NCBI GenBank assembly: GCA_946623875.1
Contig: CAMORO010000002.1
Span: 21,476-85,475, forward strand
From: an uncultured Lachnospiraceae bacterium
GTDB taxonomy: Bacteria > Bacillota > Clostridia > Lachnospirales > Lachnospiraceae
DNA length: 64,000 nt
Direction of reading: 5' to 3'
The translations under genes were made by a program, and so were the position numbers. Within the stretch, counting starts at the first letter, position 1, and the number at the start of each line of letters is the position of its first letter. The notes beneath the pieces are model-generated. The model saw only the letters and a list, made by a program, of their open reading frames with translations, was not told the DNA's origin and did no database searches. Below, piece by piece: positions 37,663-59,188 of this stretch.

Positions 37663-38157
37663 TTATGGCAATGATGAAATCCTCAGCAGATCTTTAAGCT
37701 TTCCCAATGCTGCCTTGTGCTTAACCTTAGTCATACCGTAGCTTATATTAAGCTTTTCGGATACCTCTGTGAGGGAGTAATCCTCATAGTACCGCATGAT
37801 TATGATATCACGTTCATCCCGTGAAAGCTTCTTAAGAGCCAAAGCAAGCTCACCAAGTGCCTCCTCACGCAGATAGCTTTCCTCCACATTATCATTTGAC
37901 ACCATATCTTCCGAAAGCTCATCCGAAACCTTTGCAGACCTGAAATGATCCGTAAGGGTATTCCGCATGATAGTATATATCCATGTTGAAACAGCGGCCT
38001 TACCGGGATCATACTTCTCTGAATATTTAAGAGCCTTTATGAACACTTCACTGGTTATATCCTCCGCTTCTTCCCTGTTACCGATACGGTTTAACAGATA
38101 GCCGAATATTTTGTCATGATATTCCCTGTACAACTGTTCCTCGTTTATGCCATTCAT
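37663..38157 (-). CDS. ECF-type RNA polymerase sigma factor
   Basis: YHDKIFGYLLNRIGNREEAEDITSEVFIKAL (region 2); LSRDERDIIIMRYYEDYSLTEVSEKLNISYGMTKVKHKAALGKLK (region 4). Confidence 0.93.
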   Translation of the reverse strand: MNGINEEQLYREYHDKIFGYLLNRIGNREEAEDITSEVFIKALKYSEKYDPGKAAVSTWIYTIMRNTLTDHFRSAKVSDELSEDMVSNDNVEESYLREEALGELALALKKLSRDERDIIIMRYYEDYSLTEVSEKLNISYGMTKVKHKAALGKLKDLLRISSLP

Positions 38158-47899: not shown

Positions 47900-48802
47900 T
47901 CAGTTTTCAAGTGCCCCGGCATCATATCCGTAGTTCTTGAGCAGTACGTCCGAATCCCGCCAATCCTTCCTGACTCTTACCCAAAGCTTAAGATTAACCT
48001 GCATCTCCAACAATCTCTCTATCTCATATCTTGCCGCAGATCCTATCTTCTTAAGCATTTTACCCTGCTTGCCTATGATTATGCCCTTGTGGGATTCCTT
48101 TTCACATATTATTGTTGCATCGATATGAACTATATCCTTTTGGAACTTCATCTGTTCTATGGTTACGGCAATACCGTGAGGTATCTCCTCATCAAGACAT
48201 TTCAGGGCTTTTTCACGTATCAGTTCGGATGCTATCTGACGCTGCGGCTGGTCTGTAACCGTATCCTCGTCATAGAACGGCATCCCGTAGGGAAGGTATT
48301 TAAATATCTGCTCTATAAGAGTATCGGTGTTTTTTCCCTTAAGAGCGCTCACGGGAACAACTTCCGAAAAATCACACAGCGTTCTGTATACATCGATTAT
48401 CTTTAGCAGTTCGTCCCTTTTAACGGTATCGATCTTATTGATGACGAGTATCAGGGGAACTCCCACTTTGCCAAGCTTTTCCGCTATCTGTCTGTCGGTT
48501 GATCCTATATGCTCATCGGCTTCAACGAGCCACAGAACAACATCCACATCCCTTATGGCCATATTTACCGACTTAACCATATATTCACCAAGGCGGTTCT
48601 TCGCCTTGTGAATGCCCGGCGTATCAAGGAATACTATCTGACCTTCATCACAGGTATATACGGTCTGTATCCGGTTCCTTGTAGTCTGGGGTTTATTGCT
48701 TGTTATTGCTATCTTCTGTCCGATAAGACAGTTCATCAGTGTTGACTTCCCGACATTTGGCCGTCCTACTATTGCAGCAAACCCCGATTTTAAATCATTC
48801 AT
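47900..48802 (-). CDS. era: GTPase Era
   Basis: GRPNVGKSTLMNCLIGQKIAITSNKPQTTRNRIQ, C-terminal KH domain KGIIIGKQGKMLKKIG. Confidence 0.97.
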   Translation of the reverse strand: MNDLKSGFAAIVGRPNVGKSTLMNCLIGQKIAITSNKPQTTRNRIQTVYTCDEGQIVFLDTPGIHKAKNRLGEYMVKSVNMAIRDVDVVLWLVEADEHIGSTDRQIAEKLGKVGVPLILVINKIDTVKRDELLKIIDVYRTLCDFSEVVPVSALKGKNTDTLIEQIFKYLPYGMPFYDEDTVTDQPQRQIASELIREKALKCLDEEIPHGIAVTIEQMKFQKDIVHIDATIICEKESHKGIIIGKQGKMLKKIGSAARYEIERLLEMQVNLKLWVRVRKDWRDSDVLLKNYGYDAGALEN

Positions 48803-49934
48803 TTGACTTATTACCTTCTTCGTCTTTCGATGCCGTTCCCTGCCCTCCTACAGGCTGTCCATAACCTTTTTTTCTCATTTTTGCGTTTCTTTTGGCAGCT
48901 TTCTTTTCAGCTTTCATTTTTGCCCGTTCTTCCTTTGTATACCTGCTGTTTTTGTTGATAATAAACTTTATTATCAGTACAATCACAATTATTATAACTG
49001 CCCAGATAAGAAGTACCGGAAGGGCTATTACAAGTCCGACAAGGAAATCGAGTAAGCCGTTCCATACCCGCTTGCAGTTTTTGATGAAGCCTTCACTCAT
49101 ACGTTCAAGCCTTGTCTTTTCAGCAACAACAACAGGTGTATATTCAATAACCTGCTCGATATTAAGGGTCACCGTACTGTAGGTAGCCTGGTTCTTCATC
49201 TGCTTAAGCTGTGCCCCGTATGATTCTATCTGATAGCGCACCTCTGTAAGTCTTGATTCAAGAGCTATTATCGTATCAAGGTCATCAGCCTGTTTGAGAA
49301 GTTCATTTATCCTGTCGTACTCTATCTCGTAGCTTTCAAGCTTGCTCTGCATATCAACATAGCGGAGAGTCACATCCTCTGCATTGCTGTTCTTTGAAAG
49401 AACGTTGGACTGTCCTTCGACCTCGTCCACGAAACCGTCAAGCTTTTCAACCGGAACCCTTGCTATTATTGTGGCTGTTTTCCTTTCCGAGCTTGAGTAC
49501 TTGGTGTTCTCTATATTTGTGCTTTCAATGTATCCGCCGAGGCTGTCGACACGTCTTTCCACGTTCTTTACCATAACCTCAACGTCTTCGGATTCAACAC
49601 GGAGATATACATTCTTGATAAGCATACGGCCTAAGCCTTTGGAATTGACACTCTCCGCATCAGCTTCGTTAACAGTTGCGTCATCCATTGAAGCGTCGGC
49701 CCCGCTTGCTGTCATCTTGGCCGATTCTTCAACCGGGTATTCGTCGTAATCGTATTCTTCGTATCCATCGTAATATTCTTCCGCTGCTGCCACCTGATCA
49801 TCGGCCTCATAGGCGGATTTGTACTCCGCAGGAGCTTCCGGAGCGTAGGCTCCCGAACTGTCCGATGAACCGCATCCTGTAAGCGCTGCCGCAAGAACAG
49901 CCAAAGCCACTGTCATAATTCTTCTCTTCATCAT
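48795..49934 (-). CDS. DUF4349-type lipoprotein
   Basis: Lipobox AALTGC; GGYIESTNIENTKYSSSERKTATIIARVPVEKLDGFVDEVE; C-terminal TM. Confidence 0.87.
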   Translation of the reverse strand: MMKRRIMTVALAVLAAALTGCGSSDSSGAYAPEAPAEYKSAYEADDQVAAAEEYYDGYEEYDYDEYPVEESAKMTASGADASMDDATVNEADAESVNSKGLGRMLIKNVYLRVESEDVEVMVKNVERRVDSLGGYIESTNIENTKYSSSERKTATIIARVPVEKLDGFVDEVEGQSNVLSKNSNAEDVTLRYVDMQSKLESYEIEYDRINELLKQADDLDTIIALESRLTEVRYQIESYGAQLKQMKNQATYSTVTLNIEQVIEYTPVVVAEKTRLERMSEGFIKNCKRVWNGLLDFLVGLVIALPVLLIWAVIIIVIVLIIKFIINKNSRYTKEERAKMKAEKKAAKRNAKMRKKGYGQPVGGQGTASKDEEGNKSNE

Positions 49935-50043: not shown

Positions 50044-52971
50044 CTAAAACAGCGACTCAACCTTATCAAACAGCTCCGCTTCCTTTTCAACCATCTCTTC
50101 GCTTCCGAGCACACACAGATATTCGTCTTTTACAACCGCTTCAATATAATCCGCAAGTCTTCTGATATCATCACTTTTGGCGTTCAGGACTTCATCTCTC
50201 TCCCTCTGTATTTTTTCAAGAGAATCACCCGTGAAATACGCTATCATCGATCGTACACCCTTTGCCCTTGGTGTGAGCGGAATATCCATATCCGATATTG
50301 TGCCTATTATATATTTGGTCATATCCCTTTCATCGGGATCGAAATTCCTTACGTAATCGGCCGCTCCCTTATATATTTCAAGCGTATTCCTAAGATTGGG
50401 ATCCCTGTAGGAAGTAAGATACATCGCTCCGGATCTTGAGTAGGAATTCATACATCCGTAAGCACCGCCCTTAACCCTTACATTTATCCAAAGATAATCA
50501 TAACCCATTATAACCTTAAGTACCTTAAGAGCTCCGGTATAATCATAACCATGCCTGATAAAGTTACCGCACAGAGCTACATACTGCACCTTTCCTGGGG
50601 TCTTGTAGCCTTCCTTTGCATGCTTAAGAGTTATGGAATACTCCTTTGTTTTTATCGGAACGGTAATAAGCTTTTTCTTGAAGCCATCGATTAGCTGCTT
50701 TAACCTTTCGTATTCGCTCTTTTCCGCGATATAGTCCACAAACAGATTCTCGGGTCTGAATACAATGTTGACAAACTCCTTAAGGTTTCTTTTGAATTCT
50801 TCCTTCCTGCTCTCATAATCCGAGATAAGAGCATCAATGAACCTGTAGAAATCTATCCCCGATGTCTTTTCGCTTATCGCTGCCGTATCCGAACAGCCTG
50901 ACATTGCCCTTACAACGGCTACGGAATGACCACCCTGTGTCATTGATGTCTGCATGCGCGAACGGATCATATTAAGAATCTCAAGCAGCCTCTTATCATC
51001 CGTAAGATCAGATGTACCTATGATCTCACTAATGATATCAAAGGCGAAGGGCAGCTTGTCATACAGTACCTTCGTCCTGACTTCATAAAAGATCTTATAT
51101 CTGTCCACATCATTTACATCCGTATAACAGCTAAATGTTGATGTGAGACCGCCGGTGTTAAGATTTATCTCACTGGCAAGATCGGCATATGTATGCTCTT
51201 CTGTACTGACAAATGAAAATATACTGCTGAACAGTCCGATATACGGTATCAATTCGTCCGGAAGCTTCCTTATATCAAATCCAAGGGTAAGATACCCTAT
51301 ACCATTTGTATATATATCATGTGTGAGAACCGTTGTTCCGCCTACATGATCAACCTCGTACTCAAAAGGAAGAGCTTCCTTTCTAATGTCGGATATCTCA
51401 AGAAGAGGGATCTTCTCAAGTTCTTCCTTCGTACTCGGTTCCTCCTGATATTTAATGAGTGCCTGTGTTTCTTTTACAAGCTCATCTATCCTGTCTTCAC
51501 TTAATGACTTCTTGTATTCCGCCAGTCTGTCGGAAAGCTCTCTGTCCATCTTCGCGGTAAGCGAACGTTCGGGTTCAAGGATAACGATCGAGCTGTGCCT
51601 GTTATCAAGGAGGTATGTTTTGATAAGTTCTTCAAAATAACCCGTATCCACCTTTTCACGCAAAAAGGCAAAGGTATCGTTTGCCTCAAGATGCATGAAC
51701 GGTTCAGTCTCGTCATAGAGCCAGCTGTCAAGTGCCTGTAAGCCGTACATCAGTCCCTTGGGATATGAGCCGAAATCCGCTTCGCGGTATCTGAATTCAA
51801 ATACATTTATCCCCGCAAGAAGAGATTTCCTGTCAAGCCCGTTTACGGTAACATCCGTAAGCACTTCCCTGATCGTATCAAGGAAATCATCAAGCCTGTC
51901 CCTGTCCGTATTCTTCGCGATCACGGAAAAATAGGGCTGATATATTCCGTTCTCGTAAACACTCTGAATATCCTTTCCTATGTTACGGTCGATAAGAGCC
52001 TGCTTGAGTACGGCTCCCGGAGCCAGCAAAAGCGTATATTCAAGTATCTGGAACGCAATGTACAGTTCCCTGTTAAGGCTTGTATCGACTACGGTATTGT
52101 ATGAAAGGAAGGTGTTCTCCTCAAGCGGTTCATCATTTGTTATCGAGTAATTCCTGGTAACGGTAACAGGCTCCTCAAACGGCTGTTGAGGCTTTATATC
52201 GGTGTCGATCTCTATGCTCTCATACAGCGACAGATATTCCCTGTCAAGATATTCAAGGCGTTCGGCCATATCCATATCACCGTAGAGATAGATATAGCTG
52301 TTTGAAGGGTGATAGAATTCCTTATGAAACCTGATAAATGCATCATAGGTAAGTGTCGGGATAAATTCCGGATCACCACCCGATTCGTTTGAATAATCAT
52401 TATCCGGGAAAAGAGAAGCAAATATCTCACGGTCAAGCATATCATCGGGCGATGAGAATACACCCTTCATTTCATTATATACAACACCGTTAATACTTAT
52501 GGGGTCATCCTTATCCTTAAGTTCGTAATGCCATCCCTCCTGTTTGAATATCTGAGGTCTGTCATATACATTGGGGTTAAAGACCGCATCAAGATAAACA
52601 TCCATAAGATTCCTGAAATCCTTGTCATTGCAGCTTGCAACAGGATAAACCGTCTTATCGGGATAAGTCATCGCATTAAGGAATGTATTGAGCGATCCCT
52701 TGACGAGCTCCACAAAAGGATCCTTGGCCGGATATTTCCCGGATCCGCACAGGACTGAATGCTCCATTATATGCTGAACGCCCGTGCTGTCCTTGGCCGG
52801 TGTTTTAAATCCTATATAGAAAACCTTATTGTCATCATCATTGGAAACAAGACATACTTTCGCTCCTGATTTCTTATGCCTTAATATAAGTCCGTCCGAC
52901 TTAAGATCCTTAAGGCGCTCTTCCTTAAGGACTTCATATGTATTAAGATCCTTTACCTTTTCAAATGCCAT
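50044..52971 (-). CDS. M16C-family (presequence protease-like) metallopeptidase
   Basis: DSTGVQHIMEHSVLCGSGKYPAKDPFVEL (HxxEH). Confidence 0.94.
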   Translation of the reverse strand: MAFEKVKDLNTYEVLKEERLKDLKSDGLILRHKKSGAKVCLVSNDDDNKVFYIGFKTPAKDSTGVQHIMEHSVLCGSGKYPAKDPFVELVKGSLNTFLNAMTYPDKTVYPVASCNDKDFRNLMDVYLDAVFNPNVYDRPQIFKQEGWHYELKDKDDPISINGVVYNEMKGVFSSPDDMLDREIFASLFPDNDYSNESGGDPEFIPTLTYDAFIRFHKEFYHPSNSYIYLYGDMDMAERLEYLDREYLSLYESIEIDTDIKPQQPFEEPVTVTRNYSITNDEPLEENTFLSYNTVVDTSLNRELYIAFQILEYTLLLAPGAVLKQALIDRNIGKDIQSVYENGIYQPYFSVIAKNTDRDRLDDFLDTIREVLTDVTVNGLDRKSLLAGINVFEFRYREADFGSYPKGLMYGLQALDSWLYDETEPFMHLEANDTFAFLREKVDTGYFEELIKTYLLDNRHSSIVILEPERSLTAKMDRELSDRLAEYKKSLSEDRIDELVKETQALIKYQEEPSTKEELEKIPLLEISDIRKEALPFEYEVDHVGGTTVLTHDIYTNGIGYLTLGFDIRKLPDELIPYIGLFSSIFSFVSTEEHTYADLASEINLNTGGLTSTFSCYTDVNDVDRYKIFYEVRTKVLYDKLPFAFDIISEIIGTSDLTDDKRLLEILNMIRSRMQTSMTQGGHSVAVVRAMSGCSDTAAISEKTSGIDFYRFIDALISDYESRKEEFKRNLKEFVNIVFRPENLFVDYIAEKSEYERLKQLIDGFKKKLITVPIKTKEYSITLKHAKEGYKTPGKVQYVALCGNFIRHGYDYTGALKVLKVIMGYDYLWINVRVKGGAYGCMNSYSRSGAMYLTSYRDPNLRNTLEIYKGAADYVRNFDPDERDMTKYIIGTISDMDIPLTPRAKGVRSMIAYFTGDSLEKIQRERDEVLNAKSDDIRRLADYIEAVVKDEYLCVLGSEEMVEKEAELFDKVESLF

Positions 52972-53044: not shown

Positions 53045-53812
53045 TTACTGCTTTATATACTCTATGGAATTGCCTGACAGACGTATGGTCTCCCTTATGT
53101 ATTCTTCATCTGTCTCAAGTTCATTAACAAGCTCCTCCACAGTGACGAGTCTTTCAAGATCCTCGGCCATCTCTTTTGCCTTATCATTAAGATCGTTAAC
53201 TCTCTTCGCCACTTTACTATCGAAATCACTGTCGTTAAATCTCTCCATTATGAGAGATTCCATTGAGTCCATGATAGTCTTTATGATGAACTCATCAACT
53301 TCATTTACCGTTTCACACAGATCGAGCATCCCTGCAGCAGTCAGAACACCTACATTGCCTTCACCTATAAGATCCTCAACCGCAACTCCCTGTCCCGTGT
53401 AGAGCCTCGCTATATCAACTACATTTCTAAGATACAGTACGGGAAGGACTTCCAATGCCCTCTCCTTACTGTCAAGTACTTCCCCTATCAGGGAATTCCT
53501 TTCATCTTCCGGGGGCATATCCATATTGTTAAGCTCTTCTATATACATCTTAAGGTATTCACTGTCCTGTGCATCCGTCCTGATGCCTTTACTTCGTTTT
53601 TCAAAAGATTCAGCCTCAAGTCTTTCGGCTTCCGTCTCAAACAGCTTAATCTTTTCATCGGTAAGATATTTATAAATAAGGACAAACTGATCCCCGCTCA
53701 CATTCAGAGGAAGAAATCGTGAATGAACCTGCTCCTTGGAAACAGACTCATGCTGGCTTTTGGCAAGCGCCCGTATCTGTATTATTGTTTTCCTGAACTG
53801 TTGCTCGTCCAT
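53045..53812 (-). CDS. sigma-70-like protein lacking -10 recognition residues and region 4
   Basis: ALEVLPVLYLRNVVDIARLYTGQGVAVEDLIGEGNVGVLTAAGMLD aligns by eye with sigma-A region 2; VTVEELVNELETDEEYIRETIRLSG with region 3. Confidence 0.75.
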   Translation of the reverse strand: MDEQQFRKTIIQIRALAKSQHESVSKEQVHSRFLPLNVSGDQFVLIYKYLTDEKIKLFETEAERLEAESFEKRSKGIRTDAQDSEYLKMYIEELNNMDMPPEDERNSLIGEVLDSKERALEVLPVLYLRNVVDIARLYTGQGVAVEDLIGEGNVGVLTAAGMLDLCETVNEVDEFIIKTIMDSMESLIMERFNDSDFDSKVAKRVNDLNDKAKEMAEDLERLVTVEELVNELETDEEYIRETIRLSGNSIEYIKQ

Positions 53813-53901
53813 TTGGGATGATCCTCCCTGTTAATAAGTCATTACCGTTATAAAACAGCCCAAAATACAAAGTATTATAAACCTGTTCCGAAAGGCTGCG
53901 G

Positions 53902-54768
53902 TCATTTCACGTGCGGATGTGTAAAAAGATGATCCTGACAGTATTCATAATTGCCGTTGCACTTGGAGCAGAAACGGAATTCGAGATTATCACCGTCCTT
54001 CTCGGTACGTCCGCATATGGCACATTTGTGTTTGGTCACATTGCTAACCTGCCTGGTCTGACGTTTAAAGGTCTGCCGTCTGTGTATTTCGGAAGGTGAT
54101 ACATACTTGTAATTTCTTGTTCCGAAAAAGAAAATAATAAAATTGAGCAGCGAAGCTATTATCGCTATCGCCACGGAGAAACCGTTGGTTATTATCTGAT
54201 AAACAAGCAGTATGACATCAGCTATGGCAAGCCATTTTATCTTGATCGGTATCAGAAACATAAAAAGAAGCTGCATATCGGGATATTCGGCGGCAAATGC
54301 CAGAAATATCGACATATTAACGTAATATGTACTAAATGCATGCGATATGGTGTTTCCGATGCTCTCCATCGGTGCCCCGGAAACATAACAGATGCCATAA
54401 AGGATAAAAGCACCTATTATCGTAAAGAGCATTCCGGAAAAAATATAGAGATTGAACCTGAAAGCGCCCCAAGTACGCTCCAGCGATGAACTTAACGAAT
54501 AATACAGCATGAGCATTATGATCGTAAACAGATCAAGCGACTGCGGCGGTACGACTATCCATGTAACCAGCCGCCATATCTGTCCATGCAGTATCTTGTA
54601 TGGATCAAGAGACACAAAACCAAGCAGATAATTTCTTGACAGCATGCCCATTATCATCATTGCATAACCGAGAATATATCCGCCTATAATGTATTTCGCA
54701 AGATTATTTATTGCGTACTTCCCAAATCGTCTTTCCAACCTGTTAATAAAACTGTTCATGATCATCAC
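53902..54768 (-). CDS. rhomboid-like (apparent pseudoprotease) membrane protein with C-terminal zinc-ribbon
   Basis: [24 protein letters not shown]; no GxSG; C-terminal [30 protein letters not shown]. Confidence 0.75.
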
Positions 54769-54835
54769 CTTTTCATTCGTTTATCCTAATAGTTTAGCAT
54801 CAACAGCCAAAAATGTAAACTTAGAACAAGACCCA

Positions 54836-54864
54836 TTGAAGTTTTATATTTTTTGTAGTAGACT
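54836..54864 (+). promoter_or_regulatory. sigma-A-like promoter TTGAAG-17-TAGACT
   Basis: Upstream of the 54914 gene. Confidence 0.5.
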
Positions 54865-54913
54865 TTACAAAGTATGCATGGAAAAAGGCATTTGGTTCCT
54901 GAAAGGAGCTTTT

Positions 54914-57900
54914 ATGAACATCGAAAATAATAATGATAAAAACAGTACAGCCGTAAATAACAACGGCTCCATATACACTCTCGGAATAGACATCGGTTCT
55001 ACGACTGTTAAGATCGCAGTCCTTGACAGCGAACACAATATATTATTCTCGGACTACAGACGTCATTTCGCCAATATACGCGAAACACTTAAGGATCTTA
55101 TAAATGATGCTTACAACAGTCTCGGCGACCTTAATGTGCACCCCATGATCACAGGTTCCGGAGGACTTACTCTGGCCAATCACCTTGAGATTCCGTTTGT
55201 ACAGGAGGTCATTGCCGTATCGACTGCGCTTAAGGATTACAGCGAAAAGGTTGATGTGGCGATCGAGCTTGGCGGCGAGGACGCCAAGATAATATATTTT
55301 GAAGGCGGTAACGTTGAACAGCGTATGAACGGTATCTGCGCGGGCGGAACAGGCTCCTTCATAGACCAGATGGCATCTCTTCTTCAGACTGATGCTGCCG
55401 GTCTTAATGAATATGCAAAGAATTACAGATCGTTATATACCATAGCAGCACGCTGCGGTGTTTTTGCCAAATCCGATATACAGCCGCTTATAAATGAAGG
55501 TGCGACGCGGGAAGATCTGTCAGCCTCAATATTCCAGGCCGTTGTTAACCAGACCATATCCGGTCTCGCCTGCGGAAAACCCATTCGCGGACATGTTGCC
55601 TTTCTCGGAGGACCTCTGCACTTCCTCTCCGAATTGAAGGCGGCTTTTGTCCGTACACTCAAGCTTGATGACGAACATACTATAGCTCCCGATAACTCCC
55701 ATCTGTTTGCAGCTATCGGATCAGCCCTTAATTATAAGGAAGATAACTTTATAAACCTGAACGGGCTTGACGAAAAATTAAACTCTGATATCCATATGGA
55801 ATTTGAAGTTGCCAGAATGGAGCCGCTGTTTGCATCAAAACAGGAGTATGAAGAGTTCGAAAAAAGACACAATGCACACTGTGTCGGAACCGCAGAGCTT
55901 GAGGACTACAGCGGAAACTGTTTTCTCGGTATTGATGCAGGGTCAACAACAACCAAGGCTGCGCTTGTATCCGAGGACGGTTCCCTGCTTTATTCATTTT
56001 ACAGTAATAACAACGGGAATCCTCTCGCGACCACAATCCGTGCGATCAAGGAAATATATTCACTTCTTCCGCCGGGTGCAAGGATAGTCCATTCCTGCTC
56101 AACCGGATACGGAGAAGCTCTGATCAAGGCTGCCCTCCTTCTTGACGACGGTGAGGTCGAGACTGTAGCACATTATTATGCGGCTGCCTTCTTTGAACCC
56201 GATGTCGACTGTATACTTGATATCGGCGGTCAGGACATGAAATGTATAAAGATAAAGAACAGAAACGTTGATTCGGTTCAGCTTAATGAGGCCTGCAGTT
56301 CCGGCTGCGGCTCATTTATAGAAACCTTTGCCAAATCACTGAACTATTCAGTTACGGATTTCGCGAAGGCAGCTCTGTTTGCGGAACATCCCATTGATCT
56401 TGGGACCAGATGCACCGTATTTATGAATTCCAAGGTTAAGCAGGCCCAGAAAGAGGGAGCCGGTGTGGATGATATTTCAGCCGGTCTTGCTTATTCTGTC
56501 ATCAAAAATGCTCTTTTCAAGGTGATCAAGGTATCGGATGCCGCTTCCCTTGGCAAAAAGATCGTTGTCCAGGGCGGAACCTTTTACAATGATGCGGTCC
56601 TTCGAAGCTTTGAAAAGATATCCGGCGGCGAAGCGATCAGACCGGATATAGCGGGGATCATGGGAGCCTTCGGTGCTGCCCTTATAGCAAGGGAACGCTA
56701 TGAGGATGTTAAGAGCACCACCATGCTGTCAATCGAAAAGATCAATTCCCTGCAGTTTTCCACTTCCATGGCCAAATGCAAGGGATGTACAAACAATTGT
56801 CGCCTTACGATAAATAAGTTCAGCGGCGGACGGCAGTATATATCGGGAAACAGATGCGAACGCGGTCTGGGCAGACAGAAAAACGAGAACAACCTGCCCA
56901 ATCTGTTTGATTATAAAGAAAAAAAGATATTCGGTTATGAACCGCTTGAAATAACGGAAGCCACCCGTGGTACCGTAGGTATTCCGCGTGTTCTTAATAT
57001 GTATGAGAACTATCCGTTCTGGTTTACTTTCTTTACAAAGCTCAGATACCGTGTAGTGTTATCTCCGAGATCTTCACATAAGATTTATGAACTTGGTATT
57101 GAATCAATTCCAAGTGAATCGGAATGCTATCCTGCCAAGCTTGCACACGGGCATGTTGAATGGCTTATAAAGCAGGGAATTAAATACATATTCTATCCGG
57201 CTCTGTTTTATGAACGCAAGGAACAGGAAGGTGCGACCAATCACTACAACTGTCCCATTGTTACTTCATACAGCGAGAATATAAGAAACAATATGGATGA
57301 GATCATTAACGGCGATGTAATTCTGCACAATCCTTTTTTAAGCTTCGAAAGCCTTAAGATCGTCACCAATGAACTTATCAAGGCATTCCCGGATATTGAC
57401 AGCGACGATATTATCGAGGCTGCAGGAGCAGGCTGGGAGGAAATGGAAAGAGTCAGGCTTGACATACAAAGAAAGGGCGAAGAAACACTTAAGTATCTTG
57501 AGGAAAGCGGAAAACACGGAATTGTACTTGCCGGACGCCCCTATCATCTCGATCCGGAGATCAATCATGGGATTCCCGAAATGATCAATTCCTATGATAT
57601 GGCTGTACTGACAGAGGATTCGATCTCGCATCTTAATCCCTGTGAACGTCCCCTGCTTGTGTCGGATCAGTGGACATATCATTCAAGACTGTATGCGGCA
57701 GCCAATTATGTCAAGACAAGAGATGATATAGATCTTGTCCAGCTTAATTCTTTCGGTTGTGGACTTGATGCCGTTACAACCGATCAGGTAAATGATATAC
57801 TTACCTCTTCCGGCAAGATATATACCTGTCTGAAGATAGACGAAGTCAACAATCTTGGGGCTGCCAGGATAAGGATACGTTCTCTGATAAGTGCGATCAA

Positions 57901-59188
57901 GCTGAAGAAAAAGCACAGGGAAACAAGAAGCATTGTTTCTTCGGCGTACAACAGGGTTCTGTTCACCGAAGAAATGGCCGGCAACTACACAATACTCTGT
58001 CCAAATATGTCTCCGATACATTTTGATATCATGGAGAAGGCCTTCAATTCATGCGGTTACAATCTTGTGGTGCCGGACAACTCCAATAAGGAGGCGGTTG
58101 ATACCGGTCTTAAGTATGTGAACAATGATGCCTGCTATCCGTCACTTATTGTTGTCGGACAGCTAATGGACGCCATTCTTTCCGGTAAGTATGATACCGA
58201 CAGACTGGCAGTTATAATGAGTCAGACAGGTGGCGGATGCCGTGCCACCAACTATATTGCTTTTATACGTCGTGCTCTGAAGAAAGCCGGATATGAGCAT
58301 ATTCCCGTCATATCCCTAAACCTTGGGAAGATCGAAGTAAATCCGGGCTTTAAGATAAACCTCAAGCTTGTACGAAGGCTTGCCTATGCTGCAATTTTCG
58401 GTGATCTGTTTATGCGATGCCTGTACAGGATGCGGCCTTATGAGATCACTCCCGGTTCTGCCGACGCAGTACATAAAGTATGGGTTAACAGATGCCGGGA
58501 ATTCGTCGGGAAAAAGTATCAGAGCTATAATGTGTTCAAACGTATGTGCAGAGAAATTGTGGCAGATTTCGATTCCATTCCTATAGACGAAGAATTGAAG
58601 AAACCGCGAGTGGGTATAGTAGGCGAGATCCTTGTGAAATACTCACCGACCGCAAACAACAATCTCGTAGGTCTTATCGAAAGTGAAGGAGCCGAGGCGG
58701 TTGTGCCGGACCTTCTTGATTTCATGCAGTACTGCTTCTACAACCAGATTTACAAAGCGGAACATCTTGGGAAATCAAGAAATACATCCAATATATCTGC
58801 AATTGCCATACGCTTTGTGGATCTTTTGAGAAATTCCGCAATAAAAGCTCTCAGTGAAAGCAGACATTTTGAGCCTCCGGTCAATATAAGAACAATAGCG
58901 AAATACGCAAGTGATATAGTATCGATTGGAAACCAGACAGGTGAAGGATGGTTCCTTACCGGAGAAATGGTTGAACTGATCCATTCGGGAGTGACGAACA
59001 TTGTATGTACACAGCCTTTCGGCTGTCTTCCAAATCATGTGGTTGGTAAGGGTGTAATAAAGGAATTGCGAAGGAATTACCCGGATTCAAATATCGTTGC
59101 GATAGACTACGATCCGGGAGCCAGCGAAGTAAACCAGCTCAACAGGATAAAGCTTATGCTGTCAACCGCATTCAAAAAGCTGGCATAG
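54914..59188 (+). CDS. fused acyl-CoA dehydratase activase / 2-hydroxyacyl-CoA dehydratase-related ATPase
   Basis: Two ASKHA modules ([28 protein letters not shown]), [11 protein letters not shown], later Cys-containing dehydratase-like half; start at 54914 with GAAAGGAG. Confidence 0.92.

Follow-up and report, generated by a model that had tools for sequence, protein, structure and literature searches.

What can a protein still do when it follows the housekeeping sigma factor from its first region onward but has lost the parts that read promoters? The question is raised by a gene on the minus strand of the window (the whole 64,000-nucleotide stretch analysed, from an uncultured Lachnospiraceae bacterium). 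Its 255-aa product, P0001, matches SigA regions 1.1, 1.2, 2.1–2.2 and 3 and stops ahead of the sigma finger and region 4. The gene, the segments of its product and its neighbours are as follows.

53045..53812, minus strand: sigma-A-like protein without region 4 (P0001), 255 aa; start codon ATG at 53812, last base of the stop codon at 53045
53823..53829, minus strand: ribosome-binding site AGGGAGG, ten bases ahead of the ATG at 53812
53639..53812, minus strand: region 1.1-like domain, residues 1–58; RpoD-model alignment from profile position 15, AF2 pLDDT >90
53468..53560, minus strand: region 1.2-like segment, residues 85–115, from the SigA alignment
53318..53467, minus strand: region 2.1–2.2, residues 116–165, the part with which sigma binds the beta-prime clamp helices; from the SigA alignment and the domain model
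53354..53374, minus strand: DLIGEGN motif, residues 147–153 (sigma70 403–409), from homologue conservation
53234..53317, minus strand: degenerate region 2.3–2.4, residues 166–193, acidic, –10 reading residues absent
53072..53215, minus strand: region 3-like helices, residues 200–247; Pfam Sigma70_r3 at 205–248
53045..53071, minus strand: C-terminal tail NSIEYIKQ and stop, ending where the sigma finger (3.2) and region 4 would be expected to start
53902..54768, minus strand: polytopic membrane protein with a Cys-rich C-terminal tail, encoded directly upstream of the sigma-like gene in the window's clade
50044..52971, minus strand: M16C (PreP-type) peptidase, downstream neighbour, synteny conserved
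48795..49934, minus strand: DUF4349 protein, conserved downstream neighbour
47900..48802, minus strand: presumably the Era GTPase (a name taken from family knowledge, on the basis of similarity to the Era cluster), conserved downstream neighbour

Sigma ancestry and fold

The similarity of P0001 to the housekeeping sigma factor is far above chance. The NCBIfam RpoD model aligned with residues 9–247 (E = 1.2e-13) and B. subtilis SigA from the PDB (7ckq_F) with residues 24–247 (E = 1.4e-9), bearing out the original prediction that the reading frame follows housekeeping sigma throughout. For this single protein the Pfam matches to Sigma70_r2 (E = 2.7e-4) and to r3 (E = 7e-3) did not reach the curated cut-offs; among relatives, r3, r2 and r1.1 were matched by 62/64, 45/64 and 28/64 proteins of clade 1, to which the window belongs, and by 21/23, 19/23 and 17/23 of clade 2. 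On sequence evidence the protein is a descendant of group 1 sigma (SigA/RpoD) across regions 1.1–3. Region 4 had been noted as absent from this protein, and everything past region 3.1 is in fact missing family-wide, homologues ending a median of 14 residues past sigma position 500 in both clades.

A full-length AF2 model (pLDDT 89.9, pTM 0.54) was best matched in the PDB by sigma factors from RNAP structures or by models containing sigma. Whole-chain Foldseek TM-scores were low (0.35), because a long helix leaves the domain orientation unsure, as the pTM indicates, and a single-domain model was therefore used. Residues 84–200 modelled alone (pLDDT 92.6, pTM 0.85) superposed on C. difficile SigA (7l7b_F) with a TM-score of 0.74 and 2.4 Å rmsd over 102 columns at 26% identity. 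Comparison with SigA had been proposed as a check, and in this model the sigma domain-2 fold is retained.

Scanning the locus for promoters and terminators gave counts near the shuffled expectation and was uninformative. The genome's own SigA was not found in its assembly (83% complete). A separate gene at 37663–38157 (minus strand) encodes a 164-aa ECF-type sigma factor with regions 2 and 4 both present. Divergent from the sigma-like locus, 54689–59188 (plus strand) encodes a long protein of BcrA/BadF type (2-hydroxyacyl-CoA dehydratase activator type); its frame opens within the gene on the other strand, so the true start probably lies downstream of the first one listed.

Residues kept and lost

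Residues are numbered as in E. coli sigma70, anchored on D403; for this numbering and for the contact assignments we take established sigma70 structures to apply. The homologue set comprised 151 proteins, 128 from clade 1 and 23 from clade 2. Across 75 SigA-invariant positions the mean fraction kept was 0.32 in clade 1 and 0.35 in clade 2; since the average such position survives in only about one third of homologues, the clamp motif stands far above this background and the DNA-reading set far below it. D403, E407, G408 and N409 were kept in 98–100% and L404 and I405 in 83–100% of proteins in both clades, with all six at 95–100% in clade 1 (N = 128). In clade 2, where mean column identity is 31%, the D, E, G and N of the motif make up four of only eight invariant columns. 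It is chiefly through the region 2.2 helix, which carries the motif, that sigma contacts the beta-prime coiled coil (PMC4598750).

The claim that the core-binding face is kept held only in part. The six motif residues D403, L404, I405, E407, G408 and N409 are retained, but in the window's clade Q406 has become G (128/128), L402 has become E (122/128), and position 413, M or I in SigA, is mostly a small residue; these three changes argue against core binding in that clade. Q406 itself was kept in 22/23 clade-2 proteins (96%) and in none of clade 1. Substitutions of Q406 weaken core binding in E. coli. The glycine is nevertheless compatible with an otherwise normal sigma, because two phage sigmas (L166, L168), full-length and apparently functional, carry DLIGEGN and retain WWIRQ.

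The promoter-reading residues, by contrast with the clamp motif, are lost family-wide. The –10 reading set (N383, R385, L386, K423, 425–430, T432, W433, W434, R436, Q437, T440, R441) was kept on average at 9% in clade 2 and 1% in clade 1. The residue-level observation that the two tryptophans and the Q/T contacts of the –10 helix are gone was correct, and the loss is a property of the whole family. Residues that meet DNA in sigma have turned acidic (K423E, K426E, T440E), the last of these in 127/128 clade-1 and 13/23 clade-2 proteins. The net charge of region 2.3–2.4 is –5 here versus +4 in SigA, and the family as a whole is acidic (median pI 4.4; charge –26 versus –15). Homologues with region 2.4 or region 4 had been named in advance as the outcome that would speak against the prediction; none of the 151 keeps either the –10 reading set or region 4.

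Distribution, loss and gene neighbours

About half of 36 sampled congeners carry an orthologue (43–92% identity). In some of these the protein is a short form of 173–185 aa from which region 1.1 is absent (L014–L017), so region 1.1 seems dispensable for the protein's role. The gene is under purifying selection (dN/dS 0.05–0.07 in pairs with measurable dS; one near-identical pair was uninformative). In four 99%-complete congeners the M16C gene directly follows the membrane-protein gene across a clean gap with no sigma-like gene, and a search of these four with P0001 returned SigA-type matches only. The gene is thus dispensable in some lineages, and any role in the economy of polymerase must be dispensable there as well.

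Among 298 Lachnospiraceae genomes, essentially one per genus, about 100 had a match above the best SigA score, a lower bound obtained with the clade-1 profile, the clade-2 census being blurred by SigA itself; nearly all of these matches lie in ORFs too short for SigA. Outside the family, across 288 genomes from the class and 146 from the order, the matches listed were SigA-sized, save a few truncated at contig ends, and no region-4-less relative was seen among the matches listed for sister families. When 85,462 species were scanned, each represented by a single genome, at least 575 relative-encoding stretches with a match to [ED]DL[IV]GEGNx[AG] were recovered. The 80 named loci belong to Lachnospiraceae or to loosely named clostridial MAGs (Eisenbergiella, Acetatifactor, Parablautia, Kineothrix and many others).

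Clade 1 is marked by DLIGEGN and by the gene order membrane protein, sigma-like protein, M16C peptidase, DUF4349, Era, RecO; clade 2 is marked by DLIQEGN and has scattered neighbours, named by eye (S41 protease, RseP-like protease, alcohol dehydrogenase with mutY, carB). In a maximum-likelihood tree of SigA and the region-4-less proteins, SigA formed one group (100/100) and clade 1 another (100/99), and two very long clade-2 rows adjoined the SigA branch. The tree is compatible with a single origin of the region-4-less proteins.

The membrane-protein gene was found in 28/29 family genomes searched. In the window its product (53902–54768) ends in a CAICG...CSKC tail and looks rhomboid-like, by eye only, with no evident GxSG and no Pfam rhomboid match.

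Several other settings for the gene were considered and rejected. A phage origin is contradicted by the viral-contig matches, those translated all being full-length sigmas that mostly have WWIRQ or a comparable –10 helix; the two records with homologues that are filed as bacteriophage from human faeces (L176, MT837372.1; L177, MT835772.1), each with a clade-2 homologue, resemble bacterial chromosome contigs. A plasmid-borne gene was represented by one short match only. A sporulation-specific regulator is equally discounted, none of 37 congeners, carriers included, having a Spo0A match over the curated cut-off.

Candidate roles

The best explanation, to which we give about an even chance, is that the protein is a promoter-blind SigA paralogue that binds core RNAP and competes with true sigmas or parks polymerase away from them. 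It is preferred because the clamp motif and the fold are kept while the DNA-facing basic and aromatic residues are now acidic or unrelated. The attachment to core, the competition or parking, and whatever conditions might set these off are inferred. The protein would adopt the folds of sigma's region 1.1, its domain 2 and the beginning of its domain 3, and would dock on the beta-prime clamp helices of core RNAP through region 2.2. It would neither melt nor read the –10 element; lacking the finger it would not enter the active site, and lacking region 4 it would not reach the –35 element or the flap. Such a core-bound 'null sigma' would occupy sigma's main site and place an acidic domain 2/3 where promoter DNA belongs, and the outcome would be competition with SigA and alternative sigmas, or a part of the polymerase pool held inactive.

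The main rival is a decoy for anti-sigma factors in the manner of PhyR. Here the protein would not be RNAP-bound; its sigma-like surface would sequester an anti-sigma or other regulator that acts on SigA or an alternative sigma through region 2.2, and that sigma would thereby be freed. Mimicry by a degenerate sigma domain has a precedent in PhyR, which titrates NepR (PMC8103513). Anti-sigmas such as RseA also cover region 2.2 (PMC4598750), so the same conservation is expected and does not single out RNAP as the partner, and the Q406G and L402E changes of clade 1 could mark a lost grip on RNAP. However, PhyR, an alphaproteobacterial anti-anti-sigma that shares with the present family a sigma fold without promoter recognition, is of the ECF-like type, has a receiver domain fused to it and is reported to be degenerate for core-RNAP contacts as well as for the promoter (PMC8103513), whereas here the RNAP motif is what is best kept, including Q406 in clade 2. 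No receiver domain was found with Pfam, and no anti-sigma-like neighbour is conserved across both clades. We regard the decoy as rather unlikely.

Less probable again is a modulator outside sigma competition altogether, in which the sigma fold would serve as a protein-binding module, for instance at the membrane with the product of the adjacent gene. In the window's clade the membrane-protein gene almost always lies next to the sigma-like gene and points the same way, even where other neighbours differ. Yet functional pairing is weakened by the retention of that gene in congeners and clade-2 genomes that have no sigma-like gene at the locus, and clade 2 sits elsewhere; the strong retention of D, E, G and N at the clamp site also favours an RNAP-type partner.

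It is very unlikely that the protein is one half of a split sigma, binding core while recognition of the –10 and –35 elements comes from a second protein. In the Bacillus SigO–RsoA system domains 4 and 2 do sit on different proteins (PMC8103513), and RsoA, like the present family, is a stand-alone sigma-domain-2-like protein without region 4. A candidate partner might be seen in the extra gene of about 140 aa that lies between the sigma-like and M16C genes in 63/80 related loci (for example L107:7759–8181), but its product has no Pfam or NCBIfam match and it is missing from the loci of the window and its congeners. Region-4 scans of five carrier and four non-carrier genomes gave strong matches essentially in ORFs that also have region 2, and other short matches that were weak and not specific to carriers. 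Thus no region-4-only partner was found adjacent to the sigma-like gene, and no clear carrier-specific orphan in these nine genomes. Moreover, domain 2 itself is without DNA contacts, the acidic T440E included, and RsoA is a protein of about 9 kDa that works with SigO, whereas the family here has regions 1.1 and 3.

A degraded, non-functional SigA duplicate or sequencing artefact, which the missing regions 4 and 2.4 superficially resemble, has next to no chance given an intact gene in about 100 or more genomes, a low dN/dS, an invariant motif, a confident fold and its own ribosome-binding site; a frameshifted or decayed SigA is ruled out by the conserved reading frame together with purifying selection.

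Returning to the proposed promoter-blind occupant of core RNAP, its likeness to SigA/RpoD lies in regions 1.1, 1.2, 2.1–2.2 and 3 in order, the domain-2 fold and the DLI-EGN clamp motif, and the differences in the loss of the –10 reading residues, finger and region 4, the greater acidity and, in the window's clade, Q406G. MzaA, the sigma-70-like protein of the MZA anti-phage system, gave only a weak 52-residue match over generic region 2 (profile positions 424–475 of 683); models of MzaA run to about 700 aa, the genes next to the sigma-like gene (M16C, DUF4349, Era) form no defence locus, and a defence role was rejected. We rate the family as a further case of sigma mimicry, already known from PhyR, and this variant of it as new. 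No description of a region-4-less SigA-like family was found in the literature available, which covered few subscription journals and makes this weak evidence of novelty.

That sigmas compete for a limited amount of core polymerase is central to how bacterial regulation is understood; of the familiar brakes, anti-sigmas act on sigma and 6S RNA acts on holoenzyme. The wide retention of a promoter-blind SigA copy in Lachnospiraceae suggests a built-in decoy or transcription brake. More specifically, and tentatively, Lachnospiraceae may possess a dedicated chromosomal 'null sigma' that takes the sigma site on core without recognising promoters and sets the polymerase available to real sigmas, a protein counterpart of 6S RNA or Rsd. 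If so, it would be a direct core-side brake, chromosomally encoded in a major human gut family, and the family would offer a natural sequence set that separates sigma's core-binding residues from its DNA residues, with gene-free congeners for comparison. In L088, L090, L099 and other related loci, antisense open frames of up to about 490 aa outscore the sigma-like gene in naive ORF calling, and these long frames are a likely source of its mis-annotation.
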